DNA of 64,000 nt from Arthrobacter sp. Y-9 (GTDB lineage: Bacteria > Actinomycetota > Actinomycetes > Actinomycetales > Micrococcaceae). Shown piece by piece: positions 19,654 through 44,768 of this stretch. The first letter of the stretch is position 1; every line of letters begins with the position of its first letter. The position numbers were made by a program, and so were the translations under genes. Location of the stretch: assembly GCF_029690065.1 (NCBI RefSeq), contig NZ_CP121463.1, positions 248,001 through 312,000 on the forward strand, written 5' to 3'. The notes under the pieces were generated by a model. That model saw only the letters and a list, made by a program, of their open reading frames with translations. It had not been told where the DNA came from and ran no database searches.

Positions 19654-20946
19654 TCACGCCCTCAGGCAGGGGCTCGGCCATTTGGTGGTGGCTGGTTCTC
19701 TGAGATGGTTGTTTTGGGTGAGGGTGAAATCTGCTCCGGCCACGCAGGGCTTCCTGCCAAGGGTGAGATGGAACTGAGCCTGCCGCGCATCGTCGGCTTC
19801 TGCATCGCGGATGCACCGCCAAGTTCCGCTTTCTGTGGCCTGACAGCTCCAAAAGTCGGGCGGGTCTACGGCGATAATCTGACTCGTTGCCCCCGGGTCG
19901 AGGGTGACATCCAGGGGTGTCAGGGACCTGGTCGGGAAGCTCAGATCTGCGCTTGCGATTCTTCCATGGTGAGAGGTGATAGTGAATTGTGGTCCCACCC
20001 CAGCGGAAGGAAGCGAGGTCACTGTCATGCTGGGCCCCGGAGCCACTGCTAATTGGGTGACAACTGCGATGAGTAGGAGCGCCACTCCGATCGCTAGTGC
20101 GGTGGCGCCGGCGGCCAGGGTGGAGACGGTGCGTGAATGTGTGGGACTTCCGAGGTTGTTGTGGCCTTGGCCTGGATAGATCTGGGCGAGGGGCAAGAGG
20201 GCCAGTGCGGGCAGAATCATGCGTTGAAAAGGCCCAACCTCTTGTACTTGCATCAAGATGGAGGGGCAGGTTTTGCACGTGCGCAAGTGCTCTTCTAGGA
20301 GCTCTGCGCGGCTCTTGCGCAAGCTCCCTCGCACATAGGGCGGGATGTCGCGGATGAACACGCGGCACTGCTCGGGGCCCTGTGCTGTGACGTGCTCATA
20401 CAGATAGCCAAGGCGCAGCGCTTCCTTGGCCCTCCGATGCAGCGCAACGGTCGCGTTCGGGGAGAGCCCCAGCAAAGGGGCGGCCTCTCGTGGGGGCATG
20501 CCCTCGACGTCGAGGTACCAAATAACTTCCCGCCACCGGTCCGCAAGTTGCCGGAAGGCGTTGCGGGCGGCGGCGTCGTCGAACTCGGCGACGACGCGAT
20601 TGGCGTCGGCCACTTCTGAATCCAGGACTTCAGTGTCCATGACGGGGACCTCCCGCATGGCTTTTCGGTTCATCCGGTACATGGAGCGGGAGACGCTAGA
20701 GATCAGGTATGGCCCGAATACATCGACGGGGCCCTTCCCGGCCTGAATCGCGGTCAGCACCGTGGTGAACGCATCGTTCACCGCGTCCTCAGCGAGGGTG
20801 TAATCCGGGGTGAGACGCCGGGCCACCCGAAGGGCAGAGGCGTGGTGGCGTCGAAACAGCTCCCCATAAGCGTCGAGCTCTCCAGCCCGAACTTGCTCAA
20901 GCAGCTCACCGTCAGTGGGCAGAATGACGTCGGATGCGTCGCTCAT
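19654..20946 (-). CDS. ECF sigma factor fused to zinc-finger anti-sigma domain, membrane segments and C-terminal domain
   Basis: A 430-residue chimera. Residues 14-95 are sigma region 2 (VRAGELDAYGELFRRHH, LAEDAVNDAFTTVL). About 125-185 is region 4 (WREVIWYLDVEGMPPREAAP, LLGLSPNATVALHRRAKEAL). Residues 194-227 form a ZAS/zf-HC2 motif with Cys194, His220, Cys224 and Cys227. Hydrophobic segments lie at 240-256 and 277-301, followed by a 125-residue tail with FWSCQATESGTWRC resembling DUF11/Ig domains. Fused sigma/anti-sigma ECFs are known in Actinobacteria. If only the second segment spans the membrane, the tail is outside; if both do, it is inside. The ATG at 20946 overlaps the surface protein stop (ATGA), so expression should be coupled to it. 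Confidence 0.85.
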   Translation of the reverse strand: MSDASDVILPTDGELLEQVRAGELDAYGELFRRHHASALRVARRLTPDYTLAEDAVNDAFTTVLTAIQAGKGPVDVFGPYLISSVSRSMYRMNRKAMREVPVMDTEVLDSEVADANRVVAEFDDAAARNAFRQLADRWREVIWYLDVEGMPPREAAPLLGLSPNATVALHRRAKEALRLGYLYEHVTAQGPEQCRVFIRDIPPYVRGSLRKSRAELLEEHLRTCKTCPSILMQVQEVGPFQRMILPALALLPLAQIYPGQGHNNLGSPTHSRTVSTLAAGATALAIGVALLLIAVVTQLAVAPGPSMTVTSLPSAGVGPQFTITSHHGRIASADLSFPTRSLTPLDVTLDPGATSQIIAVDPPDFWSCQATESGTWRCIRDAEADDARQAQFHLTLGRKPCVAGADFTLTQNNHLREPATTKWPSPCLRA

Positions 20947-23030
20947 CGCCGACCACCCCACACAGGGCGGACCGCGGCCAATAGCAAGGCTGCGATGAAG
21001 ATGAGCGTCAGACCGCCCATCACGAGGGACCAACGAACGTTCACGACGTGGCTGAGCACCGGGACGGAGAAGACGGAGAGGGTAGGGGCAGCGTGGGCGG
21101 TGGTGATCGTGGCTTGACACGACGAGCTCGCTGCTGCGGGACAGTTTTCCCCGCCGACGACTCGCCCGATTAGGGTGCCGCCGCTGGTGCCAGTGGTGAC
21201 GGAAAAGGTGAAGGACCTGCGCCCCTGTGGGGGGAGCGAGACCTGCCAGAGCAGACGAGATTCCTGATACGCCACCGTGGCTGGTGCATCCCCGCGATAA
21301 GTGGCTCCGGGGAGGATTCCTGAGAGATCAATGACGGCAGTCCCGGAGGCCGGGCCTTTTCCAGAGTTGACTGCGTCCACCGTGAAAGTCGCCGTATTCT
21401 GTGCTTCGGCCTGTGCAGGTCCTGAGATCATGAGGGTGAACGCTGACACCGGGTGGGCCGCGCACGCGCTGCCAGAACGGCATTGAGCCGGCTTTGCTCC
21501 GGCGGGATGGGTGCCGCCGGCCGTGAAGGCGGCGACCAGGGTGTGGTCGCCAGCGGGGGAGGGGTGAACTTTCACCGCGAAGCTGACCTGTTTGCTTTCC
21601 CCTGGTGCGAGAGTTCCGAGAACATCCAGCGTCGTAGCACTGGCGTGAACCTCCCAGTTTTCCGGTGCTGTCTGAAGGGCGGGTAGGTAGACGGCATCGT
21701 CGAGGACCCCGCGGAGGTCTATGCCCTGGGCGATGTGAACCGGCGTGATGGCGGAATTGGTGAAGGTCGCCGTGTAGTGGACCGTTTGCTCGGCCTTCAC
21801 CGAGGTGCCGCTGGGCGGATCGGCATGGAAGGTGGTGTCTACACAGTCGGCCACGCACGAGTCCATCGGTGGTTGCGGAACGGGCAGAGGGCGTGTCGTG
21901 ATGCTGGGGGCTGGGGTCGGCTCGCTGGGGGCCGGGGTCGGTCGGTTAGGGGTTTGGCTTGGTGTTCCTGGGCTGGGTTGGGTGGCTTCATTGCCGAACG
22001 TGCACCGAATTGCGGCATCCCCGGTCAGGTATCTCGGTGCGATGCTGATGGTCGTGCCGCGCAGCGTGAAGGGCACGTTGCTGGGGTTGCCGCTTAACGT
22101 CGAATTGGAGTCAATGCAGGACACCTGGCTAAGGCCGAAACCTTTCGGCGTCAGCTGCGTCACGGACGCAGCTTGAGCATAGTTAAGGACTGTGCTGGGC
22201 GTTGCCGTCGTAGCCAAGCCCGATTCTCGGGTGGTGATCGATTGAGCCGCATGGCTCAGGTTGCTGGTGGTGAAGCGAAACATTCCGGCTTGGCCTTCGG
22301 CCGATACGCCCACCTGTACTGTGGCCGGTGCGGGAACGAAGGCGAGGTCTAGCCAGAAGACATCACGGTTGGTGCCGGTGCCGGCATAACCGAAATTGAA
22401 GGCGATCTGGGAGACCGTACGCTGCTGCAGTTGCAGGTCGAAGGTGCCGCAGCCGAAGTTCGAGCAGCTTCCCGGGGGAGCCGCTTTCGCGCCGATGAAT
22501 TGCCGCGGATTGAGCACCCCAAGGGTCCTGTTTGAATTCCACAGGCCCAGATCAGGGGTGGCGTTCACCGGGATAAAGGAAGCGTCGCGAACAGTGATCG
22601 GGTGATCGTGATAGGCCGTGATGATGCGCGAGGGGTTTACCCTGGCAGCTCCGATATCTGCCACCGTCAGTCGCGGCGTCGCCACCGGCGCCGAGAACGT
22701 GTACGTAAGAGCGCCGCACGCGGCGGTGCATCCGGTCAGGTCGATTCTCAGTCGATGCGATTCCGAACTCAATTTTCCGGGGCCCGAGTATGACGCCGAA
22801 ACGGTCACCCCCTCCGCTGTGCGCCCTATGGCGGTGGTACCGGCAACGGTCCAGGCCTGAGGTTCAACGAGCTGCTGTGGGGCAGCTGAAGCCTTTGAGA
22901 TGCCGGCACCGCCTTGGAACACAAGCACCAACAGGGTGGGTAACAAAAGCATCAAGCCTGCCAGAGTCCGGCGATGTCCTCCATGGGTGGTAGTTCGATC
23001 CTGCTTAGTTGAGAGCGAGGATTCGCTCAT
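20943..23030 (-). CDS. secreted, membrane-anchored DUF11/Ig-type surface protein
   Basis: A 695-residue product from the ATG at 23030 (GAGGGG upstream). It has a signal sequence (RRTLAGLMLLLPTLLVLVFQ, ending SKASAA) and an N-terminal beta-rich region of about 330 residues with paired Cys (GCTAACG, GSCSNFGCG). A Pro/Thr linker (PSPGTPSQTPNRPTPAPSEP and on) separates this from two DUF11-like repeats (VKAEQTVHYTATFTNSAITP; AEAQNTATFTVDAVNSGKGP). The C-terminus is one membrane helix and the basic tail RPVWGGRR. There is no LPXTG, so it is anchored by the helix. It precedes the fused sigma factor with a 4-base overlap. It could be the partner that is sensed, or a cargo made with the sigma factor (inference). 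Confidence 0.75.
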   Translation of the reverse strand: MSESSLSTKQDRTTTHGGHRRTLAGLMLLLPTLLVLVFQGGAGISKASAAPQQLVEPQAWTVAGTTAIGRTAEGVTVSASYSGPGKLSSESHRLRIDLTGCTAACGALTYTFSAPVATPRLTVADIGAARVNPSRIITAYHDHPITVRDASFIPVNATPDLGLWNSNRTLGVLNPRQFIGAKAAPPGSCSNFGCGTFDLQLQQRTVSQIAFNFGYAGTGTNRDVFWLDLAFVPAPATVQVGVSAEGQAGMFRFTTSNLSHAAQSITTRESGLATTATPSTVLNYAQAASVTQLTPKGFGLSQVSCIDSNSTLSGNPSNVPFTLRGTTISIAPRYLTGDAAIRCTFGNEATQPSPGTPSQTPNRPTPAPSEPTPAPSITTRPLPVPQPPMDSCVADCVDTTFHADPPSGTSVKAEQTVHYTATFTNSAITPVHIAQGIDLRGVLDDAVYLPALQTAPENWEVHASATTLDVLGTLAPGESKQVSFAVKVHPSPAGDHTLVAAFTAGGTHPAGAKPAQCRSGSACAAHPVSAFTLMISGPAQAEAQNTATFTVDAVNSGKGPASGTAVIDLSGILPGATYRGDAPATVAYQESRLLWQVSLPPQGRRSFTFSVTTGTSGGTLIGRVVGGENCPAAASSSCQATITTAHAAPTLSVFSVPVLSHVVNVRWSLVMGGLTLIFIAALLLAAVRPVWGGRR

Positions 23031-23646
23031 CGTGTGCCCCTCATCCAACATTGAGTCACACCGAAGCACGGCACCGGGCGACCCAAAAACTGCGCCCAAG
23101 AGACGCCACCTCACAACGCAAGCCTGTTGCCGGGATGCCGCCATCAGGTCGAACATCATGTTCTCCGCTGACCCCTGGCGCAACCACCTACCCCGCTGTC
23201 CAGGGGGAGCGCTTCGTCCGTATCACGGCACGAGAAGAAGCATGGGCAGCGAGCACAACTCCCTTGTCGACCCGAGTAGGCATCTCCTGTTCCACCAGGT
23301 GAAGGCCACCCGGCATTTCGGAGATAGTTCGCTGCTCGCCGATAGTGATGGAGAACGGTGGAGAATATTTCTCCACCTCAACGGCCGTTCCAGGCAGCCT
23401 CGACTCCCCAATGCGAGGTTGGACCGGCGCGGGGCCCTCGCACGCTTGCCCGGTCGTGGCGGCGCCGAAGCCATTGACTCCTGAGTCCACAACTGGGCCT
23501 GGGTCTCTTCCCGGATCGTTAATAGCCAAAAATAACTTGGAAATTTGACCGCAGTGGAAGCCCACGTCGTGCGAAGGTGGTTACCTAGAGCGCTAAGTTA
23601 TTTTTGGGGAAGGCAGCAGGTGAGGGACGATTTACGAGCAGAGATC
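23031..23646. other. intergenic region between surface-protein gene and nrdH-like gene
   Basis: No gene seen. The promoter of the surface protein/sigma operon should be at its left end. The right end holds the 13-base inverted repeat at 23526-23607. Short open frames here lack ribosome sites and recognisable products. Confidence 0.4.
23526..23607. promoter_or_regulatory. pair of inverted 13-base AT-rich boxes
   Basis: CCAAAAATAACTT at 23526-23538 and its exact reverse complement at 23595-23607, separated by 56 bases, in front of the NrdH-like gene. The AT-rich boxes stand out against GC-rich surroundings. They could be two copies of an operator in opposite orientation or a looping repressor site. 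I cannot match them to a known regulator. Confidence 0.45.
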
Positions 23647-23883
23647 ATGGTGTATACCAGCCCGGACTGCCTTCAGTGTGATGCCACCTGCGAGGCGTTG
23701 ATGATGCAGGGGCTTTCTTACCGCCGAATTGACATCTCCGATGACCCCGCGGCTCGGCGGTTTCTTGAAAGCTTTGGGTTCTCAAGGATGCCGGTCGTGG
23801 TAACGCCACATGAAAGTTGGAGCGGGTTTCGCCCGGACAAGCTGGCGGCACTGAAGTCCCGGATTTGTTCCGATCTCAACTGA
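23647..23883 (+). CDS. nrdH: NrdH-like glutaredoxin / thioredoxin-fold redox protein
   Basis: A 78-residue redoxin. MVYTSPDCLQCDATCEAL carries the C-x2-C active site (CLQC; NrdH proteins usually have CxQC). The central part is SYRRIDISDDPAARRFLESFG, then MPVVVTPHESWSGFRPDKLA with the cis-Pro and the W-S-G-F-R-P-D signature typical of NrdH. NrdH reduces class Ib ribonucleotide reductase and takes electrons from thioredoxin reductase. The ATG at 23647 gives the family's usual length; an in-frame extension to 23545 would add 34 untypical residues. No nrdI/nrdE/nrdF genes are nearby, so this is a stand-alone, probably accessory copy. Confidence 0.8.
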   Translation: MVYTSPDCLQCDATCEALMMQGLSYRRIDISDDPAARRFLESFGFSRMPVVVTPHESWSGFRPDKLAALKSRICSDLN

Positions 23884-23919
23884 GCTCAGCGTTACCTGCA
23901 TCTCTCGATCCAGATAGCG

Positions 23920-24798
23920 TCACCATGGACGTAGCCCGGGCTCCGCTGAATATCCCGGGGGGCATGGAGTGTTGCCGCAGAGTAGAGCGTCTGGATCGTT
24001 GCTGTCCAGACCGCCGCTGCGCGCTGATTTGGGTTCACCAACGACGTGGGGGGTCTTCGACTTTGGTGTCCACAAGAGCTGCAATTGGTCCACGCGGGCT
24101 ACGCAGTCAGGGCATCGGGCCATGTGAGCGACCAGAGCATGGGTCTTAGTCTCACTTAGCGTCCCGTGAACGAAAGCAGGAATCGAGGGGATCGCCTTTC
24201 GGCAGGCCGAGGGAAGATTCGTTGGCTGACTCAGGTGAGCGGCGAGGTAGCCGAGGCGAAGTGCCTCCTTGGCGCGGCGATGCAGGGCTACGGTCGCATT
24301 TGGCGAGAGGCCCAGGATCTTGCCGGCCTCCCGAGGCTTGAGCTGCTCAATGTCCAACAGCCAGATTACTTCCTTGAACCTCGTCCGCAACTGCCGGAAG
24401 GCGTGGCGGGCCGCGGGGCCCTCAAAAAGGGCCAAGATGTGATCCGAGTCGGGAAGGTGCGGCTCCTGGCCCCGATCATCCAGGCCAGGGCTTTCCCGCT
24501 GCGCGGCTCGATTCATGCGGTGCATGGCGCGCGAGACGCTCGAGTACAGGTAGGGCCAGAAGAGCCCGGTGGGACCGTGCCCGGATCTCAGCGCGATGAG
24601 GATAGCTGCGAAGGCTTCGTTGACGGCATCCTCAGCCAAGTTCTTATCGGGAGTCAGTCGCCGTGCAATGGCAAGAGCCCGCTGGCGGTGACGGGAATAG
24701 AGTTCGCCGTAGGCGACCATATCGCCGGCACGGACGGCTTGGATAAGTTCTGCGTCGGACGGGAAGGGGGGATTGGCGTCGTCGTCGAGCACGCTCAC
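23920..24798 (-). CDS. ECF sigma factor fused to zinc-finger domain, no membrane part
   Basis: A 292-residue relative of the sigma factor at 19654. Region 2 (VRAGDMVAYGELYSRHRQRA, LAEDAVNEAFAAIL) and region 4 (FKEVIWLLDIEQLKPREAGK, ILGLSPNATVALHRRAKEAL) are nearly superimposable on it. The zinc-finger motif is Cys199, His225, Cys229, Cys232, with the same C-x25-H-x3-C-x2-C spacing. After it only 60 hydrophilic residues remain, with no membrane helix, so it is either a cytoplasmic version (redox or zinc sensing) or a truncated copy. The start is uncertain; GTG at 24798 is preferred because homology begins soon after, but the frame is open to 24978. Confidence 0.75.
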   Translation of the reverse strand: MSVLDDDANPPFPSDAELIQAVRAGDMVAYGELYSRHRQRALAIARRLTPDKNLAEDAVNEAFAAILIALRSGHGPTGLFWPYLYSSVSRAMHRMNRAAQRESPGLDDRGQEPHLPDSDHILALFEGPAARHAFRQLRTRFKEVIWLLDIEQLKPREAGKILGLSPNATVALHRRAKEALRLGYLAAHLSQPTNLPSACRKAIPSIPAFVHGTLSETKTHALVAHMARCPDCVARVDQLQLLWTPKSKTPHVVGEPKSARSGGLDSNDPDALLCGNTPCPPGYSAEPGLRPW

Positions 24799-26257: not shown

Positions 26258-26438
26258 GCTCACGGCAGAGAGCTGACAAAGGTGCCGGCAAAGGCCTGGC
26301 CTCATACAGCAAGGCTGCGACGGCTAAGCCTGGCAGAGAAGACGACGAAATCCGTCGTGGAACAGAATCGTCGCCTTGCTCCGTTGTGGGGAGGCACCCC
26401 CCCCCAATGGCGCCGCCCCACAGCTACTTCCTGTGTTT

Positions 26439-27221: not shown

Positions 27222-27491
27222 ACAGGCTCCTTCTAACTAGGGCGGCGCCTCCCGCCGCTATCTCTTAGTAGGGCTAGTTGTTGAGACAGTGACGGCGTTT
27301 GGCTCGGTGAGCAGAGGCCGTGTCTGGACGCGAAGAATGCTTGCCTTCTCACCACTAACGGGGGGAACGGATTTCGCGATCCATGTCCGATCTCCGGTGC
27401 TGCCGGCGATGGCCTGTCTTGAGGGGGGAGGAACGCCTGCGGTGTTCTCGGGTTTCGGTCATTTCGGGGTTGGGCACCTCACACTAGGGAG

Positions 27492-28130: not shown

Positions 28131-28230
28131 GCTGCGGCGCCCCGCAGCCCATCTGGTGTTGTCGATGGTGGGGTCCGTGGTGCCGAACTCATGCGCTTGC
28201 CTACGTACTGGCCGGAGTGAAAACTATGGG

Positions 28231-31740: not shown

Positions 31741-31761
31741 CCAGGTTCTCCGTGCAACTCG

Positions 31762-33746: not shown

Positions 33747-34565
33747 TCAGATTGACTCGTAGACGGCGTTACCAGGTCCAGGTACGAAGTAGGTCTCCGG
33801 CTTCAGCGGGATTGCGCCGCCAGGGAATAGAGCGTCGACTTGGGTGATGTACTCCTTGATCCGCCGAGACTTGGTTTCGAGGCCTGAACCCCAAGTGAAG
33901 CGCAAGAGTCCCATCTCGGAGAGATGATCTTCATCCGGTTCAGAGGCTAAATCGTAGGGAAAGTCTGAGTACATTACTAGCTTTTCCGGATACTCCTCGC
34001 CGACACCCCGGGTAATCATGTGGTCCACGTGCTTTCCCACCCCTGCTGGACAGAACAGCAGCTCGGAGTTGGTCTGATGCAGAAGTTCGGCAACGCTGCC
34101 CTGAAGGTGACGGATAAGCTCCCGATCTCCCCGCGCAATCCTGCCCAAGGCGATGTCGAACCGGAAGGTAGGGTAGCGGTGGGTCAGCTCAGGGAGGAGC
34201 GCATCCCACACGCCGCGCCTTAGCTTCGCCGGCCTGCGTCTGCCTCGGAAAAGGGCATCCACTGCGCCCAGATGGACAGATTGAACCCCCATTGCTTTAA
34301 GTACAGCCCGATCCTCGGCCTGCCGGGCTTGGAACAAACTCCCGGCGTCCATGACGGAGCATTGGCGCATGAAGGAGCGTGCGGCGCGGGTGTGGGGCGC
34401 AGGCATTGCCTCGGTGAACAACGTTGCTACGGTGATCTCTCGTTGGCGGGTTTGCGCCTCGATAAGTGCACCACAGGACAGCACAGCGTCATCAAGGTGG
34501 GGTGAAAGGAATAGCCAGGGAGCGTTGCCCTCCAAGGAACGCTCGAATGTTGTTTGATTCGACAT
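33747..34565 (-). CDS. PIG-L family deacetylase
   Basis: A 272-residue LmbE/PIG-L-type zinc-dependent N-deacetylase. LFLSPHLDDAVLSCGALIEA carries the H-x-D-D zinc motif near residue 22, and FCPAGVGKHVDHMITR has the second histidine pair (H-V-D-H). The family removes acetyl groups from GlcNAc-type sugars or related conjugates. It is the last gene of the glycan operon, and its ATG directly follows the TAA of the GT4 gene with no gap, so translation is coupled. It probably deacetylates a GlcNAc-like residue of the glycan made by the operon. Confidence 0.88.
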   Translation of the reverse strand: MSNQTTFERSLEGNAPWLFLSPHLDDAVLSCGALIEAQTRQREITVATLFTEAMPAPHTRAARSFMRQCSVMDAGSLFQARQAEDRAVLKAMGVQSVHLGAVDALFRGRRRPAKLRRGVWDALLPELTHRYPTFRFDIALGRIARGDRELIRHLQGSVAELLHQTNSELLFCPAGVGKHVDHMITRGVGEEYPEKLVMYSDFPYDLASEPDEDHLSEMGLLRFTWGSGLETKSRRIKEYITQVDALFPGGAIPLKPETYFVPGPGNAVYESI

Positions 34566-35711
34566 TTATCCCCTATCCCCCTGGTTGTTCACTTGGAGCC
34601 GGGCTGTGCTGTTACCCAGAGCGGCCAGAGAATCTTGGTAGGAGCGCGCCTGCATCCTGGCAAGCGCATCCCAGTTGTACCGTGCTGCAAATTGGCGTCT
34701 GAGGACGCTGTCCTCTTCTAGTCCGGGTTGGAGATACCGGCGGGTTATCTCTTCGGCGAGTGCGTTGGTGTCGAATGGTTCAACGAGCCAGCCTGCGCCG
34801 GTTGGGATGATCTCCCGGAGGCAGGGGATGTTGAAGGCGATGACGGGCGTGCCTGTTGCGAGTGCGTCGATTGCGACGAGTCCGAATGTTTCATTGCGGG
34901 AAGGGACTATTACTAGGCGGGCGTCGCTTAGTGCTTGGAATTTCTTGGGTCCGGAGAGCCATCCGAGCATATGTACTCGGTCGGTGAGTCCGAGGGTGTG
35001 GATTGTTGTGCGGATTTTGGCTTCGTCCGGGCCGGTTCCTGCGATGAGGAGGTTGGCGGTTAGGTGCTGGGAGCTTCGTGCCCAGGCTTGCAAGAGTAGG
35101 TCGAGGCCTTTGTCGCTGTATTCAAGGCGTCCTATGAAGAGAACGTCGTGTCCAAGGTGGGGTTGTGGGTTCCAGGCTTCGGGGTCGACTCCGTTTCCTA
35201 TGACGTCCACGTGCGCTGTGGGGTTCTGTGCACTCAGGCGTTCGGCGATACCGTGGGAGACGGTGATGAGTCTGTGGTGTTTTCGTACGCCCCAGCGTTC
35301 GATCCAGTACAGCGGGAGTTTGTACTGGCGTGCTTTGTCTTTAGCATTTAGCCATTGGACGACGCCGATGGTGGGGCGCCTGGTCCAAAGTGGTGCGGCC
35401 ATGGTGGAGAAGGGAGCGAAGAAGTCTTCTACGACTAGATCAGTTGTTCCGCGGCGTTTTTGCACTTCGAAGGGGAGCCGTATCACGTAGGCCAGGAGTC
35501 GGGTCATTCTGTTCTTGCCGGTGCCGATGCCGATGGGTACGTAGTGCACGCCGTCTTGGACCCGTTCTTTCCACCCTGGGTACCGGGTGGTCAGTACTGT
35601 TATGTGGAAGCCTTCTGCCGCCAGCCGGCGGTTGATTTCGTGGGTTCTTACGGAGCCTCCGCCTGCTCCTGGCATGCGGGGGTCTTCGAAGCCTAGATGT
35701 AAGACTCTCAT
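34566..35711 (-). CDS. GT4 family glycosyltransferase
   Basis: A 381-residue GT-B retaining glycosyltransferase. The start at 35711 (MRVLHLGFEDPRMPGAGGGS) carries the acceptor-side Gly-rich loop. The C-terminal donor domain shows DVLFIGRLEYSDKGLDLLLQ, LLIAGTGPDEAKIRTTIHTL, and SRNETFGLVAIDALATGTPV with the E-x7-E nucleotide-sugar motif. No membrane helices, so it acts at the cytoplasmic face. It starts 2 bases after the fusion gene's stop and abuts the PIG-L gene, indicating one operon. Confidence 0.9.
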   Translation of the reverse strand: MRVLHLGFEDPRMPGAGGGSVRTHEINRRLAAEGFHITVLTTRYPGWKERVQDGVHYVPIGIGTGKNRMTRLLAYVIRLPFEVQKRRGTTDLVVEDFFAPFSTMAAPLWTRRPTIGVVQWLNAKDKARQYKLPLYWIERWGVRKHHRLITVSHGIAERLSAQNPTAHVDVIGNGVDPEAWNPQPHLGHDVLFIGRLEYSDKGLDLLLQAWARSSQHLTANLLIAGTGPDEAKIRTTIHTLGLTDRVHMLGWLSGPKKFQALSDARLVIVPSRNETFGLVAIDALATGTPVIAFNIPCLREIIPTGAGWLVEPFDTNALAEEITRRYLQPGLEEDSVLRRQFAARYNWDALARMQARSYQDSLAALGNSTARLQVNNQGDRG

Positions 35712-35713
35712 CG

Positions 35714-38700
35714 TTACTTTTCCGTTCCGTACGCCTTTGAGGGCTCCCCGACGTTGGCTGCGGCTGCTGTGTCGAGTTTCAGGGGATCGACGAACCATAT
35801 GGTGGTGTCACCGTTGGTGGGGCCGGCCGTGGTGATCAGGGGGGTTGCGTGGGTTTTTAGCCAGGTGAGCATGGTTGGGTTGGCGTAGCCATATCCCTGG
35901 CTGGTGGGAGTTGACTGGGTCATGATGTAGCTGACTTTGTTTTGTTTCATCAGTGGGGCCGATGGCCAAATGCCGAACCTGGGATCGTCCATGTAGGCGA
36001 AATAGGTGGTGCTGTTGGTGACGCTGATGCGCGCGTTGGCGGGCAGGTTGGCCTTGACCCAGTCGTTGGCCCTGGCAAATCCATTGTCCGTGGTCAGTTC
36101 GGTGCGGAGTCCGAGGGCAATGGTTAGTGCGATGTAGCTGGTGCTGATGACGATGAGGGTCTTGCGGGCCTTGGGGTATCTTTCGTGGAGCTCCACTACT
36201 GCCAGGACTGAACACAGTGCCCCGGCCACCATGACGCCGTATCCGTATTGTTCTTCGAACGTGCCGAATATTGCGCTGTAGGCGCCTGCTGTTCCGAGGG
36301 AGAGCCCGGTCAGCCCAATGAGACGTCTCTTGGCATGTTGGCTGAAGCACACGAGCAATCCGGCAACGGGGCAAAGGCCCAGCAGGAGGTAACTTGTCCC
36401 GAAGTGCCCGCTCTGCTCGATGAGCCGGGAGATGAGACTTGGTGACCCTTCTGCGGTGAATCCGGTGGTTTTCTCGACACCGGACATGCGGAGCAGTCCG
36501 TTGCTTTTTGCCCATACCCAAGCCGGAAGATTGCCGTCGGTGGTCACCAGCAGCAGGTAGATCGAGTAGGGCAGGGACCCGAACCCTATGATGACGAGGG
36601 CTTTACGCCAGGTGAGGGTCCTCCTCCATGCGACGGCTGCTATTACCGGCGCAACGGTGCAGACGAGGAAGAAGTCTTTGCACAGGACGGAGTACCCCAG
36701 TAGCAGTCCAACTGTTGCCAGTTTCAGGAAGGAACGTGCCTTGCCCTGTGGGTCGCGGGTTCCCAGGAGGATGAGCAATCCTGCCAGCGCCGGCAGCATG
36801 GCCGAGGTTTCAAGGAAGTCGTGGCTGTTGTTGCGCAGGATGAATGGCTCGAAAGCGAGGAGAACGGCTGTGAACCAAGCGGCGGTGCTGGTTGCCAGCT
36901 TGCGTACCAGGAGGAAGCCAAGTCCTACGGTGATGGCCCCTAGGACGGCGTTGAGCCAGCGTAGCTGAAGTGTCATCTCGATGATTTCGCCGGAGATGCC
37001 GAAGAGCTTGATGGCTCCGGCTTCGAGCAGGAAGTATCCGGGCGGGTGAAGGAAGAACGGCCCGTCAGGCAATGTGGGGAATTGGCCGGTGCTGATTGAT
37101 TCCCCTAGTCGGACGTACAACATTTCGTCCACCCACAGTTCAAATCCTCGTTCGAGGCCTAAGGCTCGGACTCCGAACGCCGCGGCAACCACTGCGATAA
37201 ATGCGGTCAGATTGCGTGAGAGTGTCCATGCTCCCCATGCCACCAGTGGGCTGGTGGAGTGGGGTCCTGCTTTGGACCGGCGGCCCGTGCCCTTTCTCGC
37301 GGCCCCCGTTAGGTGCCGTCGAAACTTACTGAGGTCCTTTCGGCTCGGCAAAGACTCGCGCTGGTGGGCGAGAACGGCGATGCCGGCGACGGCGGCCAAA
37401 AGAAGCCAAACAATGGGGTTCAGGATGCTTGCTACCGCAAGGACCACGACGAGGGCGACAGCGTAGAGAGCATACCGGCCGGCAACTCTTCCTGGGTTCG
37501 CCGTAAGGAGGATGGGCCGCGCCAAGACGACTAAAACCAGTGCGGCCAACATGGCCCCGATGGCGCATCCCACAGCCATACCGGTGACTGCGTTCATCCT
37601 CCAGCCGACCCAGAGACCTCCGCCAACGAGCAGGCACGCACAGGCCAGTCCTACTTGACAACGGCGATAAGCGCGCAAGGCCAGAAGGATGGTGGAAAGT
37701 CCCATCAGTACTGCGTAGCTGAGGCCGGAGGCTGCCAGCCATGGCAGAAAGTCGAGTGAGTCATGGTACTTCTGGGGAATAGCCAGCCCGACCAGCAGGT
37801 GTGGTGCGGTGGCGATGATGGCGAACGCCATCACAGCGAGTTGCCCGAAAGCGGCGAAAGCATCGCGGAGAACCGCGCCCACGTTGACGCCAGGTGTTCG
37901 CAGTAACGGGAAGGCCACCAAGGCGGTCCCGGCTGCCACATAGACGGGGCCCTTAGCGATCGTGGAGAGCGCCTGGAAACCTGCTGCGGCGGCTGACCCA
38001 CCGTCGAGGAAGCCCACCATTACGACGTCGATGCCCACCAGTACAGAGACCACGCAGAGAACAGACGCAATATCGCTGGTTTCGGCCCACCGCCACTTCT
38101 CGCGCAAGACCTGGGGTCGCCAGCGGACGTCCCGGTAGAACGCCCGAGGCACGAGGAGCCCGCCCAAGGCTCCCACCACGAAGCCTGTGACGGCGCCTCC
38201 GGCACCCCATGCCATCGCAAGCACCAACAGGCTGAAGAATAGCCTCAGGGTGACCTCGCCGATAGTTCGCAAGGCATACCACGTGAATCGCAGCTCGCCC
38301 TGAAGCCATCCAGCCGGTGCGGTCACGATAAAAATAGCGAAGGAGCCCAGCGCCACTGCCACAGCCAAGGTGGGGGTGGCAAGCAACAGGGTCAGCCCGC
38401 CAGTCAGGGCTGCTGCCGCAATGCCGGCAATGCATGACACAAAGACCGAGAAGGCTATGCCATCCCGACGGCCTTTGGAACCTTCGGGATGAACTGCCAC
38501 AACGTGGGACAGCGGAAGAGGGACCAAAGCCGCCGCCACAACGCCGACGATACCGATCAACATTGCAGCAGCAGCGAACATCGTGTAATCCGGTGTCTCC
38601 AACATGTTGGCCATCAGCAGGGAGCAGGCGTAACTCACCATGCCCACGACGCCCGCGGACACTGCGAGGAAACTGCTGCTGTGACCCACTCTCAGGTCTT

Positions 38701-38746
38701 GGTCCGGTGACTTTTCCCTGCGCTCGGCCTCAGGTTTATCCCGCAT
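35714..38746 (-). CDS. fusion of polysaccharide flippase and GT-C (PMT/ArnT-like) glycosyltransferase
   Basis: About 1010 residues with two membrane modules. The N-terminal half (to about 430) has some twelve hydrophobic segments in the pattern of a Wzx/MATE-type lipid-linked sugar flippase (SFLAVSAGVVGMVSYACSLL; WLQGELRFTWYALRTIGEVT). A basic linker (RRHLTGAARKGTGRRSKAG) joins a GT-C module whose first external loop, GFELWVDEMLYVRLGESIST, has the catalytic Asp-Glu. LHPPGYFLLEAGAIKLFG and LRNNSHDFLETSAMLPALAG are typical of GT39/ArnT-like enzymes. These use polyprenyl-phosphate sugars outside the membrane. One chain thus could flip and transfer glycan. The start is uncertain: ATG 38746, GTG 38776 and TTG 38842 are all in frame, and the last two crowd or overlap the GT4 gene. 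Confidence 0.82.
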   Translation of the reverse strand: MRDKPEAERREKSPDQDLRVGHSSSFLAVSAGVVGMVSYACSLLMANMLETPDYTMFAAAAMLIGIVGVVAAALVPLPLSHVVAVHPEGSKGRRDGIAFSVFVSCIAGIAAAALTGGLTLLLATPTLAVAVALGSFAIFIVTAPAGWLQGELRFTWYALRTIGEVTLRLFFSLLVLAMAWGAGGAVTGFVVGALGGLLVPRAFYRDVRWRPQVLREKWRWAETSDIASVLCVVSVLVGIDVVMVGFLDGGSAAAAGFQALSTIAKGPVYVAAGTALVAFPLLRTPGVNVGAVLRDAFAAFGQLAVMAFAIIATAPHLLVGLAIPQKYHDSLDFLPWLAASGLSYAVLMGLSTILLALRAYRRCQVGLACACLLVGGGLWVGWRMNAVTGMAVGCAIGAMLAALVLVVLARPILLTANPGRVAGRYALYAVALVVVLAVASILNPIVWLLLAAVAGIAVLAHQRESLPSRKDLSKFRRHLTGAARKGTGRRSKAGPHSTSPLVAWGAWTLSRNLTAFIAVVAAAFGVRALGLERGFELWVDEMLYVRLGESISTGQFPTLPDGPFFLHPPGYFLLEAGAIKLFGISGEIIEMTLQLRWLNAVLGAITVGLGFLLVRKLATSTAAWFTAVLLAFEPFILRNNSHDFLETSAMLPALAGLLILLGTRDPQGKARSFLKLATVGLLLGYSVLCKDFFLVCTVAPVIAAVAWRRTLTWRKALVIIGFGSLPYSIYLLLVTTDGNLPAWVWAKSNGLLRMSGVEKTTGFTAEGSPSLISRLIEQSGHFGTSYLLLGLCPVAGLLVCFSQHAKRRLIGLTGLSLGTAGAYSAIFGTFEEQYGYGVMVAGALCSVLAVVELHERYPKARKTLIVISTSYIALTIALGLRTELTTDNGFARANDWVKANLPANARISVTNSTTYFAYMDDPRFGIWPSAPLMKQNKVSYIMTQSTPTSQGYGYANPTMLTWLKTHATPLITTAGPTNGDTTIWFVDPLKLDTAAAANVGEPSKAYGTEK

Positions 38747-38783
38747 ATCGGGGGCAAGCTCTTCGAATACCTCCACAGAAGAA

Positions 38784-40229
38784 CTACCGCAACTGACCGT
38801 CGACGAAATCTGCCGAGGCAAAGGTGTGTCTTGGTCCAGCAAGAAGGGTATGAGGACTGGTGTGGCGGACCTCCGCGCCGGCTATCGAGATACCCTTCAT
38901 GGCTGAGCGGGCTTCGAATTCGTCTCGGCCTTTCATGAGAACTGACACGAGTCCATCATCAGTTAGGGCAACTTCGTCCGTAGGACGCAGGATGGCACCC
39001 AGATCGGCCTCTGCCGGCAACTTGAACCGCACCATCGTCGACAGATCCGAGTGGTGGGCACGGGGATCCCCTCCCTCGTGCCGCAGCTTCCTTTCCTCCA
39101 CAAGCACCCCAGTGAGCAGTTCCGTGGTGCGTTCCCACGTAAAACAGCGGGCCCACTCGCGGCACTCGGACGAGATGTCTCTGGCAGTGTTCGGGTCAGA
39201 AATGGTCGTGAACGCATCAACTAAGGCGGCGCCGAACTCTTTAACGGAATCAACCAACCAGCCGGTACTGCCATCAACCACCGAGTCTCGAATACCCGGA
39301 ACACGTAGAGCCACGCACGGCACACCCCAAGCTGCCGCTTCGATGACCGAACAGCCCCAGCCTTCGGCTGCAGACGTGGAGGCGGTCAGCCAGGCACGAC
39401 TCAACAACGCGTCACGGACCTCGTTAGGCTGGTAGCCATGGAAAGTTACGGTGTCGTCTAGGCCGAGGTCCATCGCGAGCTGCCGTAAGCGAGCCCGTTC
39501 CGGCCCGTCACCAACAATGTCCATTCGCAGCATTGGAACACTTCGAGCCGCCACAGCGAACCGGCCCAGCAGCAAGTCCAGTCTTTTGTGAGGCACCAAT
39601 CTGCTGACGACCGCGATCGTAGGCTCGGAGGCGCGGGCGGCCACACTCCGGGGAATCTCACTACCGCCGTTCGGCACCACGTGGATGGGTCCGTTAAACC
39701 CAAGCTTGCGAAGTTCCAGCCGAGTGGAGGGCGACACGGCCACTAGAGAGCGCGTCCCGTACACCACCTTGGCTCCGGAGCTTTCCAGGAATCGGCCTAC
39801 AGCCGCCAACCATGGCGAGAACCTGGTGCGGAACTGCTCCTGATGAACGTGGTGGACCAATTGGACGATCGGGACCGCCTTCTGTAGGAATAAGGGAGAA
39901 AAGAACGGAATTCCGTTTTGACAATCCACCACGGCATCAAATTCATCACTCGTCCGTAGAAGCCTGAATGCTGTATGTCCATAGAGCGATAACGGGCCGC
40001 CGCCGCGCACAATCCGGATGCCATCAATGACATCTTCAGCCGCTTGGTCGGTATCACGCCCCGTATACCACGTGACGCGAACTCCATTGCGCACCCAGAT
40101 GCGGGAAATTTCGTGCATATACTGCTCGGCGCCGCCAGCCTGGGAGTGCTTGATATCCCGCCAGTTGAGAACCAGCACGTGTTGTCCCGCAAGTCGGGTT
40201 GGGGAGTTGAGGTCATTTCGAGAATCCAT
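38784..40229 (-). CDS. GT4 family glycosyltransferase with C-terminal extension
   Basis: A 481-residue protein. The GT-B fold is clear: VLVLNWRDIKHSQAGGAEQY (acceptor loop), IHVVPNGGSEIPR, IAVVSRLVPHKRLDLLLGRF, MDIVGDGPERARLRQLAMDL, and TSAAEGWGCSVIEAAAWGVP with the E-x7-E motif. The last 90 residues (from about DLSTMVRFKLPAEAD) are an extra domain of unknown role, beyond the usual 380-400 residues. Its ATG overlaps the stop of the GT2 gene by one base (TGATG). It would add a sugar to the lipid-linked glycan in the cytoplasm. Confidence 0.9.
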   Translation of the reverse strand: MDSRNDLNSPTRLAGQHVLVLNWRDIKHSQAGGAEQYMHEISRIWVRNGVRVTWYTGRDTDQAAEDVIDGIRIVRGGGPLSLYGHTAFRLLRTSDEFDAVVDCQNGIPFFSPLFLQKAVPIVQLVHHVHQEQFRTRFSPWLAAVGRFLESSGAKVVYGTRSLVAVSPSTRLELRKLGFNGPIHVVPNGGSEIPRSVAARASEPTIAVVSRLVPHKRLDLLLGRFAVAARSVPMLRMDIVGDGPERARLRQLAMDLGLDDTVTFHGYQPNEVRDALLSRAWLTASTSAAEGWGCSVIEAAAWGVPCVALRVPGIRDSVVDGSTGWLVDSVKEFGAALVDAFTTISDPNTARDISSECREWARCFTWERTTELLTGVLVEERKLRHEGGDPRAHHSDLSTMVRFKLPAEADLGAILRPTDEVALTDDGLVSVLMKGRDEFEARSAMKGISIAGAEVRHTSPHTLLAGPRHTFASADFVDGQLR

Positions 40230-41026
40230 CAAATCGCGGCTTTCTGAAGTTGGAGCACGGAGGCGAAGCTGGCGACTCCGTCTTGGAGGGGGCGGAACGT
40301 GGACTCTGGTCCGTCTGTCCATGCCACCGGTAACTCGATAATGCTGACCCCGCTATCCTGAAGCCGAAGGAGGAGCTCAACGTCGAAGGCAAATCCCGTG
40401 CTTCGGCACTGCACCATGGCGGCAGTCAGTGCATCCCGTTCGAAGAACTTGAATCCGCACTGAGTGTCCTGGATGCCTTTGACCTTGGACCTTGTCAACA
40501 CCCGGAAAAACGCACCGCCCGCCCTGCGCCCAAGGGTTTGGGGCCGGACGAAGGTGGAACCACGGGTGTGGCGAGACGCGATGACCGCTGAGGCGCCATC
40601 CGAGAGGTGCGACATAGCTTTGGTGAGGGTTTCCAGCGGCGTGGCGAGATCTGCGTCAAAGAACCCTGTGAACCTGGACGTCCCGCTCAGGAGCCCCCTA
40701 CGCACGGCCGCTCCCTTCCCCCTGCGGGAGCACCCGACCATGGCAGTTTGGACCACGCCGGCTTTCTCGCGGCAGATTCGTCGAACTATCGTTGGTGTTT
40801 CGTCAACACTGCCGTTGTCCACCACTACAACACGCGAGGACCACGGTTGAAGTTTCAGGAACTCGATCGTCTTCCTCAGAGTTTCGGGAATCCTGGTGGC
40901 CTCGTTATAGACCGGTATGACAATTTCGAGATCTACGTACGAACGACGCAAGGAAATCGGCTGAGGACGTGTTTGAAGGGCCTCCCTCGCGCCGGTGATG
41001 ACACAGTCCGATTGTGACAGAACCAT
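40229..41026 (-). CDS. GT2 family glycosyltransferase (polyprenyl-phosphate type)
   Basis: A 265-residue GT-A glycosyltransferase resembling dolichyl-phosphate glucose synthases. VDLEIVIPVYNEATRIPETL is the nucleotide-sugar strand, VVVVDNGSVDETPTIVRRIC follows, and GFFDADLATPLETLTKAMSH carries the D-x-D metal site. GIQDTQCGFKFFERDALTAA is the family's conserved acceptor loop. There is no membrane helix. The start ATG at 41026 is fixed by GGAGG five bases upstream. It is the first gene of the five-gene glycan operon and may charge polyprenyl phosphate for the GT-C partner (inference). Confidence 0.9.
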   Translation of the reverse strand: MVLSQSDCVITGAREALQTRPQPISLRRSYVDLEIVIPVYNEATRIPETLRKTIEFLKLQPWSSRVVVVDNGSVDETPTIVRRICREKAGVVQTAMVGCSRRGKGAAVRRGLLSGTSRFTGFFDADLATPLETLTKAMSHLSDGASAVIASRHTRGSTFVRPQTLGRRAGGAFFRVLTRSKVKGIQDTQCGFKFFERDALTAAMVQCRSTGFAFDVELLLRLQDSGVSIIELPVAWTDGPESTFRPLQDGVASFASVLQLQKAAI

Positions 41027-41316
41027 ATGAACCTCCAAATACTCTGCAACGGCACGAAAATCATGCTCGCCTATATGTAGTGGAGGATGCGCGGAGGTTA
41101 TGACGCGCGCATCTAAATTAGGTTGCTTAACTCCGTTGCCACGTCCCCAGCGTCACACCGAACCGATCGCTTGATGGTGCGTCTTTGACCAGTGTGGCTG
41201 TCATGCCCAATTAGAAACGATATGCTGGCTCGCGGGATCCTGCCGGGAGCGTCGCCCTCCGACGAGAGTGGCAGGGGTCGGAGAATGTTATGTCCCGGCA
41301 TCGACACTGAGCCAAT
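41027..41316. promoter_or_regulatory. promoter region of the glycan operon
   Basis: 290 bases between the end of the LANTG surface-protein gene and the GT2 start, both on the minus strand. No gene seen. The low-GC part (41039-41130) is the probable promoter region for the glycan operon; I cannot pick a certain -10 or -35. Confidence 0.35.
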
Positions 41317-42609
41317 TCAGTGGACACGCCGCTTTACTGATTTCCGCGTTGCAAGCAATGCGAGCAGTGTGCCGGCTCCAAGCAGGATCAGCGCGATCGG
41401 TAGGACTGCCGTTCCACCGGCGCCCGTGTTGGCCAGAGTATCTGTCGGCCGCGGTGTCGATGGGGTTTCGGAAGGCCGAACTGCTGCCGGAGCGGTGCTC
41501 GTGGTGGCACTGCTGGTGGCTGGTGGGGGAGTCATAGATCCGGTGGATGGTTTGTCAGTGGGGGTTGGGCTGGCCGTGCTGGTCGGAGCCGTGTTTGTCG
41601 GAGTTGGTGATGGCAGAGCAGACCCGTTTGCGGTTCCGCTGGCGGTGGTTCGGCGAACCTCAACAATTACCGGTGTGTCGGTTCCGGCGATGGTGACATG
41701 GCCTGAGTTTGTGTAGGAGTCCAGCGTAGGGTCGGTGACCTGGGTGACGACAAAGAGCTGAATCAGTTCGCCTTTGGGCAGGCCAGTCCAGGTGGCGGCT
41801 AGCAGCGAAGGCGTGCACGTTATGGCCGCGGGGTAGGTTTCGTCATCGCCAGGAGTGGCGATGTTGCCGTCCTGATCCAGGGTCGTTCCTACGCGAGCAA
41901 CGATCCGGCTGCAGTCGATCTTGGTGCCCGGTCCGGGTGTGTCTGTGATGGTGACATCGCTGGATGCCAAGGTGGTGGCCGGCAGATGGAACGTCGAGCT
42001 CAACTCTGTCTGGGCGGAATCTATCCACCACATGTCTTTTTCCGGCGAGACCGGCGGTTTGGGAGCACAGTCCTGTTGGCACGGGTCGTCGACTGAGACG
42101 GGGACGCGGATGGCCGTGGAGCCCACCTGGAAGTCAAGCTGTGTTGACCCACCTGACGGGGGAACCTGAGTGTAGAGGGTGCTGAAATTACACGTACCTT
42201 GGACATTCTGAGGGTGCGAGGCAACAAAGTCGCTGAGGGTGAAGATTACGAGTCCGGAGTCAGACGCGTGAGCCGTGGCTACTGTCTGTCCTGCAGGATT
42301 CTTGAGTGTGAAGTCTGCCTGACCGAACCAGCGCAGTTGTGAGGGAAGCTGGAGGGTGAAGGTGTCGCCCGGCTGGGACCCATCGGGGACAGCCCACTGG
42401 CAGGTGAAGTCCACCTGAGACCCCTGCCCTCCAACGGTGGAGTCGGTACTGATGGAGGTTATCGCGTTCGGAATGACTGCGGCTTGAGCTGCCTGGGCAG
42501 ACCAAGAGAGTCCAAGAATGGACAGTGCAGCCGCCAGCAGCGCCCCCAGTAATGCCCGTGGCGGAGCCGTGATCTTGGTTGGGTTCCTGGGATGGAGGTG
42601 GTTGCTCAT
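41317..42609 (-). CDS. LANTG-anchored Ig-like surface protein
   Basis: A 430-residue wall protein. AAAGGA before the ATG at 42609 sets the start. A signal peptide (PPRALLGALLAAALSILGLS, ending AQAA) is followed by an MSCRAMM/SdrC-type adhesin-like region (ISTDSTVGGQGSQVDFTCQW, FTLQLPSQLRWFGQADFTLK). A second beta domain begins after the CQQDC disulphide-like cluster. A Ser/Thr/Pro-rich wall spanner (SPTPTNTAPTSTASPTPTDK) leads to LANTGAGG, a hydrophobic helix and KSVKRRVH. LAxTG is the signal used by class E sortases of high-GC bacteria; none is encoded in this window. It is divergent from the third fused sigma factor at 43212. Confidence 0.85.
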   Translation of the reverse strand: MSNHLHPRNPTKITAPPRALLGALLAAALSILGLSWSAQAAQAAVIPNAITSISTDSTVGGQGSQVDFTCQWAVPDGSQPGDTFTLQLPSQLRWFGQADFTLKNPAGQTVATAHASDSGLVIFTLSDFVASHPQNVQGTCNFSTLYTQVPPSGGSTQLDFQVGSTAIRVPVSVDDPCQQDCAPKPPVSPEKDMWWIDSAQTELSSTFHLPATTLASSDVTITDTPGPGTKIDCSRIVARVGTTLDQDGNIATPGDDETYPAAITCTPSLLAATWTGLPKGELIQLFVVTQVTDPTLDSYTNSGHVTIAGTDTPVIVEVRRTTASGTANGSALPSPTPTNTAPTSTASPTPTDKPSTGSMTPPPATSSATTSTAPAAVRPSETPSTPRPTDTLANTGAGGTAVLPIALILLGAGTLLALLATRKSVKRRVH

Positions 42610-43211
42610 ACGAGTCCTTTCGATCCCCATGGTTGGGTACATGAAGGTTCAGTGCAGCCAACTGCCGGTTTATGACGGCGACTAGAGGAATGTCCGCGTT
42701 TTCAGAGGAGACGTGCAAGAGCCACTATCAGTAGGTCGAAGCGACAGTTCGCCGGCTCTGGAGTGTAGATCTTCACCCACCACGCGCCCCAGAGCTCCCT
42801 AAATCGCCTCGTGCCCTGTACCTCACGAGGGAAAATACGTCGGATGGACGGCGCTCCACGCTCAGTAAGACCATGGCCCGGCTAACGGCCCATCCAGACG
42901 CCTCGTCTATCTACTCCCAGGACGGCGCATTACCTGACCGTCCACGTGAAACCGCCGCCCGATCCCAAGATCGGTCAAGGATCGCTTCCGATGACGGATG
43001 CATCGTTCACGGCAGCGACCGGCCGGGCCTTGGAGAAGACGAGGTCTGCAGCACAAGCATCTGCCATCTTCCCTGGTCACAGGCGGGGACCGATGACCGC
43101 TGTGCCGAGGCGTGGCAGGTCTGATGATTACGGTGGGGTCCGCGCGTAATATTTGGCGTCCAGAGGCCACTTAGTACATGGACTGGAATCTAAACGTAGC
43201 AGGGGAGAATC
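42610..43211. promoter_or_regulatory. divergent promoter region, surface protein / sigma factor
   Basis: About 600 bases between the LANTG surface-protein gene and the third fused sigma factor, which point away from each other. No gene recognised. Both promoters must lie here; a shared ECF-type promoter cannot be picked out with confidence. Confidence 0.35.
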
Positions 43212-44768
43212 ATGGCGCGCCGTTCCGCACAGAGATCAGCAACAAGTGACAGTGAACTGATCGCGATGGTCCGTGCCGGGGACGTGGAAGCCTACGGGCA
43301 GCTGTACGAGCGCCACGTATCCATCGCCATGTCGGTGGCCTGGAAGAACGTGGACAACTCAGCTGACGCCGAGGATGTCGTTGCGGATGCGTTCCAGTCT
43401 GCACTTCAGGGCCTCGTTGCAGGGCAGGGCCCGAAGGAATTCTTCCGCGCCTATTTGCTTTCCGCGGTCACAAGGTTGGCCCACCACGCCAATAGGAAGG
43501 CGCTACGGACCGCGCCGACCGACATCGAGAAGACCTTTGAACAGGATGTTGGGTCCGACGACCCAGTGATGCACGAATTTGAAACAGAGACGATCACGCG
43601 GGCCTACCGTGCGTTGCCGGAACGCTGGCAGGCGGTACTTTGGTACCTCGATGTGGAGCGGATGAAGCCAGCAGCTCTTGCCCCGATTCTGGGACTTAGT
43701 CCCAACGCCGTGTCAGCACTCGCATTCAGAGCACGTGAAGGGTTGCGCCGCGCATACCTGCAGGCCCACTTGAATGACGCGGAGCGCGGCGACTGCACGG
43801 AGTTTGCCTCCCAGCTGGGTGCATACGTCCGCGGCGGACTCACTGGCAAAATTGAAGCTAGCCTGCGCAACCACCTGGATGGCTGCCCCGCCTGCACGGC
43901 GGCCCTCGTCGAGCTCAGGGACGTCCGCGGAACAACCCGGGCGGTACTACTACCACTGCTCACCGGGATCCCCTTGGCAGCCTGGACTCAGGCGTCCACA
44001 AAATCCGCGACTACCGGACTCCTGCTGAAAGGTTCAACCACGTCGACGCTTGCCAAACCATGGTTTGTGCTGATGGCTTCTGGGATTGCGGCAGCGGTGG
44101 TCATTGGCGGAGCAAGCGACGCCCCCGTCTTGGCCCAACAGAGCCAGATCGACCCCTTCATCGCTGCCACCCAGCAACCTGAAGCGCATGAGATGCCCGC
44201 GCGGCCCGCACCGACGATGGCACCCTCCGAGCCTCCTGCGACCCAACTCACTCCAACGCAGTCGGCTGTTCCAGCGCCGACGAAGGCGCCCAACCCCACG
44301 GCTGTTCCAGCGCCGACGAAGGCGCCCAACCCCACGGCTGTTCCAGCGCCGACGAAGGCGCCCAACCCCACGGCTCTGCCGGCACAAAACCCCATACCGA
44401 AACCCGTCTCCGCCAAGGTCCGGGGGCGTGCGTTCAGCTCAGCTATCCACGGCGACCCCAGGGCCCAGAGGGTGGCCGTCAAGTTCTCCGTCCCCCGAGG
44501 CCAGGATCTTGGCCAATCAGTCGCCGAATTCTCGTTCTCAAAGCATGCATCCATCGATCTCAGAACAGTCAACGCCCCCGCCGGATGGTCCTGCAACAAC
44601 AGCAGAACAAATCCGGGTGGAGTCACCTGCAGAACCGATACCTTGAAAGGCGGGACGACCACGTTCCGTTTTGTTGTCACTCGTAACCCCTGGGGCCACA
44701 ACAACGCATTGCTCTATACGCTCCAGGGCCTCGCCTTGAGAGAAAACCTCTTTGCGCATGGATTCTGA
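43212..44768 (+). CDS. ECF sigma factor fused to zinc-finger anti-sigma domain, membrane segment, repeat linker and C-terminal domain
   Basis: A 518-residue chimera; AGGGGAGA precedes the ATG. Sigma region 2 is residues 14-95 (VRAGDVEAYGQLYERHVSIA, AEDVVADAFQSAL). Region 4 is about 128-190 (WQAVLWYLDVERMKPAALAP, ILGLSPNAVSALAFRAREGL). The zinc finger is Cys195, His221, Cys225, Cys228. Hydrophobic segments lie at 244-258 and 284-302. A Pro/Ala/Thr linker with three 12-residue repeats (AVPAPTKAPNPT, 352-387) leads to a tail of about 120 residues with GWSCNNSRTNPGGVTC, a DUF11-like disulphide pattern. The linker resembles wall-spanning regions, arguing the tail lies outside. It is divergent from the LANTG surface protein, its likely target or partner. 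Confidence 0.85.
   Translation: MARRSAQRSATSDSELIAMVRAGDVEAYGQLYERHVSIAMSVAWKNVDNSADAEDVVADAFQSALQGLVAGQGPKEFFRAYLLSAVTRLAHHANRKALRTAPTDIEKTFEQDVGSDDPVMHEFETETITRAYRALPERWQAVLWYLDVERMKPAALAPILGLSPNAVSALAFRAREGLRRAYLQAHLNDAERGDCTEFASQLGAYVRGGLTGKIEASLRNHLDGCPACTAALVELRDVRGTTRAVLLPLLTGIPLAAWTQASTKSATTGLLLKGSTTSTLAKPWFVLMASGIAAAVVIGGASDAPVLAQQSQIDPFIAATQQPEAHEMPARPAPTMAPSEPPATQLTPTQSAVPAPTKAPNPTAVPAPTKAPNPTAVPAPTKAPNPTALPAQNPIPKPVSAKVRGRAFSSAIHGDPRAQRVAVKFSVPRGQDLGQSVAEFSFSKHASIDLRTVNAPAGWSCNNSRTNPGGVTCRTDTLKGGTTTFRFVVTRNPWGHNNALLYTLQGLALRENLFAHGF
44265..44372 (+). repeat. three tandem 36-base repeats in the sigma-factor linker
   Basis: Copies at 44265-44300, 44301-44336 and 44337-44372 are identical, each encoding AVPAPTKAPNPT. 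The identity indicates recent expansion, and copy number may vary between strains. Confidence 0.9.

Follow-up and report, generated by a model that had tools for sequence, protein, structure and literature searches.

A predicted membrane-bound ECF sigma factor with a pilin-like outside domain, and a candidate promoter for surface genes in Arthrobacter

How Gram-positive bacteria sense and adjust their own pili and adhesins is poorly known. Several known regulators can be compared with the locus studied here. One is ECF52, whose Streptomyces coelicolor member SCO4117 is a single protein with a sigma domain, a zinc finger, a membrane helix, a segment rich in proline and an outside domain; the motif CSGYN-17-SRHA and autoregulation have been proposed for it (PMC5826349). 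ECF48 and ECF53, also from Actinobacteria, are fused at the C-terminus to a zinc-finger anti-sigma domain with one or two membrane helices, and activation by proteolysis is expected for them (PMC8999054). In IutY of Pseudomonas putida (ECF243), proteolysis frees the sigma factor from a membrane-bound anti-sigma part of the same protein (PMC8999054), and the RsgI-type anti-sigma factors of Clostridium are membrane proteins with an outside sensing domain that control genes for surface machinery (PMC10766802). The architecture of the chain itself is already known from ECF48, ECF52 and ECF53 in Actinobacteria.

We analyzed a window of 64,000 nucleotides from Arthrobacter sp. Y-9, to which all positions refer unless a locus is named. 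The genome (a 3.57-Mb contig) has five genes in which a sigma factor is fused to a zinc finger: three in the window, here called sigma1, sigma2 and sigma3 (Table 1), and two elsewhere.

Table 1. Features of the window discussed in the text
Feature	Position	Strand	Residues	Details and basis
sigma3	43212..44768	+		ECF sigma, zf-HC2, membrane helix, ectodomain; domain profiles, AlphaFold, charge topology
sigma3, ECF sigma domain			13-187	
sigma3, zf-HC2 zinc finger	43794..43895	+	195-228	C195, H221, C225, C228
sigma3, membrane helix	44061..44117	+	284-302	
sigma3, ectodomain	44409..44765	+	400-518	beta-sandwich, pilin/adhesin-like; pLDDT mostly >90
sigma1	19654..20946	-		sigma, zf-HC2, membrane helix (residues 283-301), short outside tail
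sigma2	23920..24798	-		sigma and zf-HC2, without membrane helix; 292 aa
Membrane-anchored surface protein	20943..23051	-		SpaA_4, DUF7927, DUF11; ATGA overlap with sigma1
Pilus operon	10596..16574	-		large DUF11/SpaA protein, SpaA-type pilin, sortase
Glycan operon	33747..41026	-		GT2, GT4, 1020-aa membrane protein, GT4, PIG-L deacetylase
LANTG surface protein	41317..42609	-		Big_8 / ALS-N-type adhesin domain; divergent from sigma3
Relative of divergent partner gene	45762..46511	-		degenerate GGDEF-like fold (predicted)
Predicted ECF promoter, glycan operon	41079..41105	-		CGTCATAA-N15-CACT
Predicted ECF promoter, LANTG adhesin gene	42651..42677	-		CGTCATAA-N15-CACT, 42 nt before the gene
Weaker predicted ECF promoter, sigma3	43145..43171	+		CGTAATAT-N15-CACT, 2 mismatches, ~40 nt before the ATG

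Domains, topology and fold

The three open reading frames lie where a preliminary description of this DNA had placed them, and its reading of each as a sigma factor joined to a zinc finger with one and the same C-x25-H-x3-C-x2-C spacing is borne out by profile searches. In all three proteins the Pfam models Sigma70_r2 and zf-HC2 score above their gathering scores (zf-HC2 at 25-33 bits against a cut-off of 22.2), and the NCBIfam sigma70-ECF superfamily model is above its cut-off. Sigma70_r4_2 is clear in each of them yet just below its own cut-off, and it is matched in 33 of the 34 homologues. The proteins thus have regions 2 and 4 and no region 3, as ECF sigma factors are defined, and their zinc fingers carry the H-x3-C-x2-C and the upstream C/H ligand of zf-HC2 (ZAS, class I) domains; sigma3 also has an NCBIfam antisigma match at E 3e-5, under the cut-off. 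The ten nearest homologues (paralogs and genus homologues) all show the C-x25-H-x3-C-x2-C spacing without change. Because 136 of 138 relatives have the zinc-finger motif, allowing C-x24-26-H, it is a feature of the family and not a product of chance.

Beyond the zinc finger the three proteins differ. As had been described, two of them, sigma1 and sigma3, continue into a hydrophobic segment and a tail, with one membrane helix each, which gives them the build of ECF48, ECF52 and ECF53: sigma factor, zinc finger and one or two membrane helices in one chain. sigma2 has no hydrophobic segment and is probably a soluble protein. In sigma3, a hydrophobic stretch (R-A-V-L-L-P-L...) follows immediately after the zinc finger, and the linker between helix and ectodomain is rich in proline and contains three 12-aa repeats. 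sigma1 has the same plan in a shorter form, and its outside tail has a conserved WxC...C pattern.

The position of the sigma3 tail outside the cell, in a positive-inside topology, is supported by the charges around the helix: in 30 of the 34 homologues the 30 aa in front of it have a higher net charge than the 30 aa behind it, and no homologue shows the opposite. In the AlphaFold model, built with the 34 homologues, the sigma domain, the zinc finger and the end domain are predicted with confidence, and the linker is not. The modeled ectodomain comes closest to pilin and adhesin domains, among them the basal pilin EbpB (VIA Z 13.2, rmsd 3.0, 114 residues), the LrpA shaft pilin (Z 12.7), the CLIPPER adhesin (12.3), the RrgB pilin (11.7) and Als adhesins. 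Similar scores are obtained for alpha-2-macroglobulin and integrin domains, so the likeness to pilins and adhesins is a statement on fold only: the model has an Ig-like pilin/adhesin fold, which is not proof of descent.

The tail had previously been called DUF11-like. That identity has to be given up at the Pfam level, since the tail matches neither DUF11 (PF01345) nor any other Pfam family in the 34 homologues and the model has a beta-sandwich instead; the NPCBM module is likewise absent among the 34 homologues by Pfam. The homologues share this outside domain, including two cysteines that hardly ever vary. Relatives in other families carry other tails, namely DUF11 in a Cellulomonas relative and NPCBM in Streptomyces-like relatives (E 1e-27 to 1e-30), and in the tree the proteins with NPCBM tails branch off on their own. 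Relatives from Cellulomonadaceae and Promicromonosporaceae (L032-L069) have tails about 1000 aa long; in L032, the single Cellulomonas tail that was scanned, there are DUF11 and DUF3344-like segments. To our knowledge, proteins with tails of this length are among the largest sigma factor proteins known.

A candidate promoter and the genes behind it

In more than 50 loci, from Micrococcaceae, Cellulomonadaceae, Promicromonosporaceae and Nocardiopsis, the adjacent sigma gene is divergent from a partner gene of about 250 aa. The partner protein has no Pfam match. Its model (pLDDT 91) has an N-terminal helical part and resembles diguanylate cyclases (DgcZ, E 2e-4); the GGDEF motif itself is missing, and the protein appears to have a degenerate GGDEF-like fold.

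Counts of word pairs upstream of the sigma genes gave elements shared by 13 sequences, as against 4-5 in shuffles, which resolved to CGTCAYGA-N15-CACT facing outward in both directions between sigma and partner. The slightly wider pattern CGTCAYRA-N15-CACT occurs 56 times in the Micrococcaceae sigma loci, which total 1.02 Mb (a count that includes a few loci of the same genome under two names), none in 671 kb of same-genome controls and none in 970 kb of loci from other families. The spacing of the boxes is sharply defined, with 56 sites at 15 and 0-3 at each other spacing. Intergenic positions within 250 nt of a start account for 52 of the 56 sites; because genes were called with our own codon model, which missed some genes and starts, the sites classed as 'other' include such cases. 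Ten whole genomes contain 54 sites, compared with 7 for the reversed pattern, and the window has two exact sites where 0.02 are expected.

The sites fall within one clade of the sigma tree (support 0.99), with 27 of its 40 members having one and none of the 98 proteins outside it, a contrast for which the Fisher value is too small since members share ancestry. Near the other 13 members the motif is absent. The clade does not include sigma1, sigma2 or the soluble genus-core copy.

Both exact sites of the window precede surface functions (Table 1), the glycan operon behind one of them starting with an ATG preceded by GGAGG at about 41026. The genome has seven sites in all. Three are at the core locus, where they precede the partner gene, the pilus operon and a DUF1684 gene; the pilus site is about 350 nt before the tip pilin gene (L007:9405-9757), a stretch that could be a long leader RNA, and two sister species have a matching site. 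The remaining two (L265 ~4025(-) and L266 ~3858(+)) are matched by similar sequences in sister species, and no convincing target gene lies downstream of them. Elsewhere among the Micrococcaceae, sites precede LAxTG genes (L017, L020, L022, L024, L054, L126), other surface or pilus genes (L026-L029, L134), and the sigma and partner genes. In a Paenarthrobacter-like genome (G064), a site stands before a GT2-GT4 operon orthologous to that of the window (78% and 72% identity) and 2.7 Mb from the sigma gene, and in Psychromicrobium the sites precede a glycosyltransferase or flippase-like gene. These positions suggest that CGTCAYRA-N15-CACT is an ECF promoter for surface adhesins, pili and coat-sugar genes.

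The preliminary description had expected one ECF promoter in front of the pilus, glycan and surface genes of the island. In our sequence search a predicted promoter of this kind stood before the LANTG adhesin gene and the glycan operon but not before the pilus operon of the window, which has no site within 2 mismatches. A promoter common to all three paralogs was also considered and rejected, as sigma1, sigma2 and their neighbors are preceded by no shared motif.

Surface genes also lie close to the fused sigma genes. Within 6 kb, 16 of 49 family loci have a gene for a sortase signal, pilin, sortase or DUF11 protein, compared with 2 of 40 same-genome controls (Fisher p 0.001). The two arrangements first noted in the window are both present: the surface-protein gene and sigma1, on the minus strand, have positions 20943-20946 in common, and sigma3 is divergent from the LANTG gene, as its orthologues in Arthrobacter and Paenarthrobacter are from an LAxTG gene. 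In three species the genus-core sigma copy is directly upstream of a tip-pilin-sortase operon. Many copies have no surface gene next to them, including most Cellulomonadaceae copies; the suspected synteny is frequent and not universal. A general linkage to pili was dropped, pilin and sigma genes being far apart in many genomes.

Two observations stand apart from the above. Psychromicrobium silvestre (G128) has nine sigma-zinc finger fusion genes in a genome of 3.2 Mb (loci L131, L133, L135, L136, L140, L152, L160 and L161), several of them beside DUF11 or LAxTG genes and most without the motif; this is possibly an expansion of surface-matched switches. In the window, an iron-type ABC transporter has a lipoprotein gene (53119-54120) preceded by GGTAAGGCTTACC (at 54100-54260), which looks like a putative DtxR/IdeR iron box.

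A proposed surface switch and its alternatives

We propose, with a probability of about 0.68, that sigma3 is a surface sensor and a transcription switch in one chain, acting at CGTCAYRA-N15-CACT promoters of surface genes. The domains, the topology, the fold and the promoter motif with its gene set, established from sequence or model, are the basis of the proposal, and the sigma-pilin fusion of Arthrobacter bambusae described below speaks for it as well. Points against it are the 13 clade members that lack the motif, the wide occurrence of the ectodomain fold, the many loci that have no surface gene close by, the two mismatches in the promoter of sigma3 itself, the long distance from the core pilus site to its gene and the absence of a site at the pilus operon of the window. 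At rest, the membrane would hold the ECF sigma domain, and the zinc-finger anti-sigma domain of the class I type in the same chain would mask it, while the single helix would span the membrane and the proline-rich stalk would carry the pilin/adhesin-like domain into the cell wall. On a change sensed by that domain, which might be surface contact, the assembly of pili or adhesins, or the state of the wall, proteolytic cleavage would free the sigma factor to transcribe its own gene, the degenerate-GGDEF gene, and those for sortase-anchored adhesins, pili and surface glycans. Masking by the zinc finger and release by proteolysis are suggested by analogy with ECF52 and IutY (PMC8999054, PMC5826349). 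We infer that sigma3 responds to the condition of the surface or the pili and that it recognizes the motif directly. The earlier view of all three proteins as membrane-tethered reporters on the surface is thus narrowed: it fits sigma3, with its helix, outside tail, ectodomain and promoter, but sigma2 has no helix, and both sigma1 and sigma2 are outside the motif clade.

The same protein might instead monitor faulty secretion or pilus mis-assembly, that is, envelope stress, and not surface contact. A pilin-like ectodomain could bind pilins or compete for them, and the genus-core copy is placed immediately upstream of a pilus-sortase operon. However, adhesins and glycan genes make up many of the targets, the sites listed include no chaperone or protease, and we regard this explanation as unlikely.

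It is less probable that the motif belongs to another regulator, for which the sigma gene is just one target. The motif is indeed unlike the one proposed for SCO4117 (PMC5826349), but it is asymmetric, has two boxes at a fixed, ECF-like spacing about 40-50 nt before starts, occurs in outward-facing pairs, and is limited to the loci of one sigma clade.

A closer physical tie to the pilus is raised by Arthrobacter bambusae DP-A9 (L027:8942-11544), where one in-frame open reading frame joins the sigma-zinc finger-membrane part to a pilin. Its order is sigma region 2, zf-HC2, membrane helix, GramPos_pilinD1, pilin backbone, SpaA and LPLTG, and tip, pilin and sortase genes follow downstream, the tip gene behind a motif site. 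The fusion occurs once in the data set, in a draft genome; a search with the fusion region gave no second one, either among the loci or in a sample of 295 family genomes that apparently does not include A. bambusae. Its pilin half, which has YPKN, is just 84% identical in amino acids and 83% in nucleotides to the separate pilin of the pilus operon 4-5 kb downstream, and a copy made in assembly is therefore an unlikely origin. The sigma factor could, on this pattern, be a part of the pilus or adhesin, with its outside domain docked to the pilus base or, as the A. bambusae chimera suggests, covalently joined to it by sortase, so that completion, loss or tension of the pilus would free the transcription factor; we think this rather improbable.

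Somewhat more doubtful still is a role of the zinc finger as the sensor, which would switch with redox state or zinc like that of RsrA, with the helix and tail serving only to position the protein. All zinc ligands are kept, and sigma2 and the relatives in L008, L011 and L013 retain sigma factor and zinc finger without a membrane part. Against this, the outside domain is conserved down to its cysteine pair, and its replacement by other surface domains (DUF11, NPCBM) in other families suits a sensor role for the outside part.

That surface genes and sigma genes are close by chance, because islands collect both kinds, is very improbable: sortase-anchored genes are indeed not adjacent to most of the Cellulomonadaceae relatives or to many of the Micrococcaceae copies, but the excess over same-genome controls and a promoter common to surface targets, unlinked ones included, both argue against it.

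Comparison with described systems

The proposed surface switch differs from each of its closest counterparts. The tails of ECF52 are NPCBM domains, which are absent from the window proteins, the SCO4117 motif is not the one found here, and its role is in development and antibiotics (PMC5826349). ECF48 and ECF53 were compared by description, and we found no link between them and pili, adhesins or a pilin-like ectodomain in the literature searched. IutY serves Gram-negative iron signaling, with another type of anti-sigma part and an outer-membrane receptor. Sigma-I and RsgI are two separate proteins, and the RsgI domains are carbohydrate-binding rather than pilin-like. In the open-licence literature we found no report of a fused ECF sigma factor tied to sortase pili or adhesins; nor did that literature describe this type of ectodomain, the promoter with its predicted surface regulon, a GGDEF-like partner or a fusion to a pilin. 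If the proposal is correct, a single protein would cover both sensing and transcription. Its promoter and its set of genes (adhesins, pili, glycans and the GGDEF-like partner) would be defined, nature would have supplied a sigma-pilin fusion, and a fused-sigma branch outside Streptomyces would have a first regulon.
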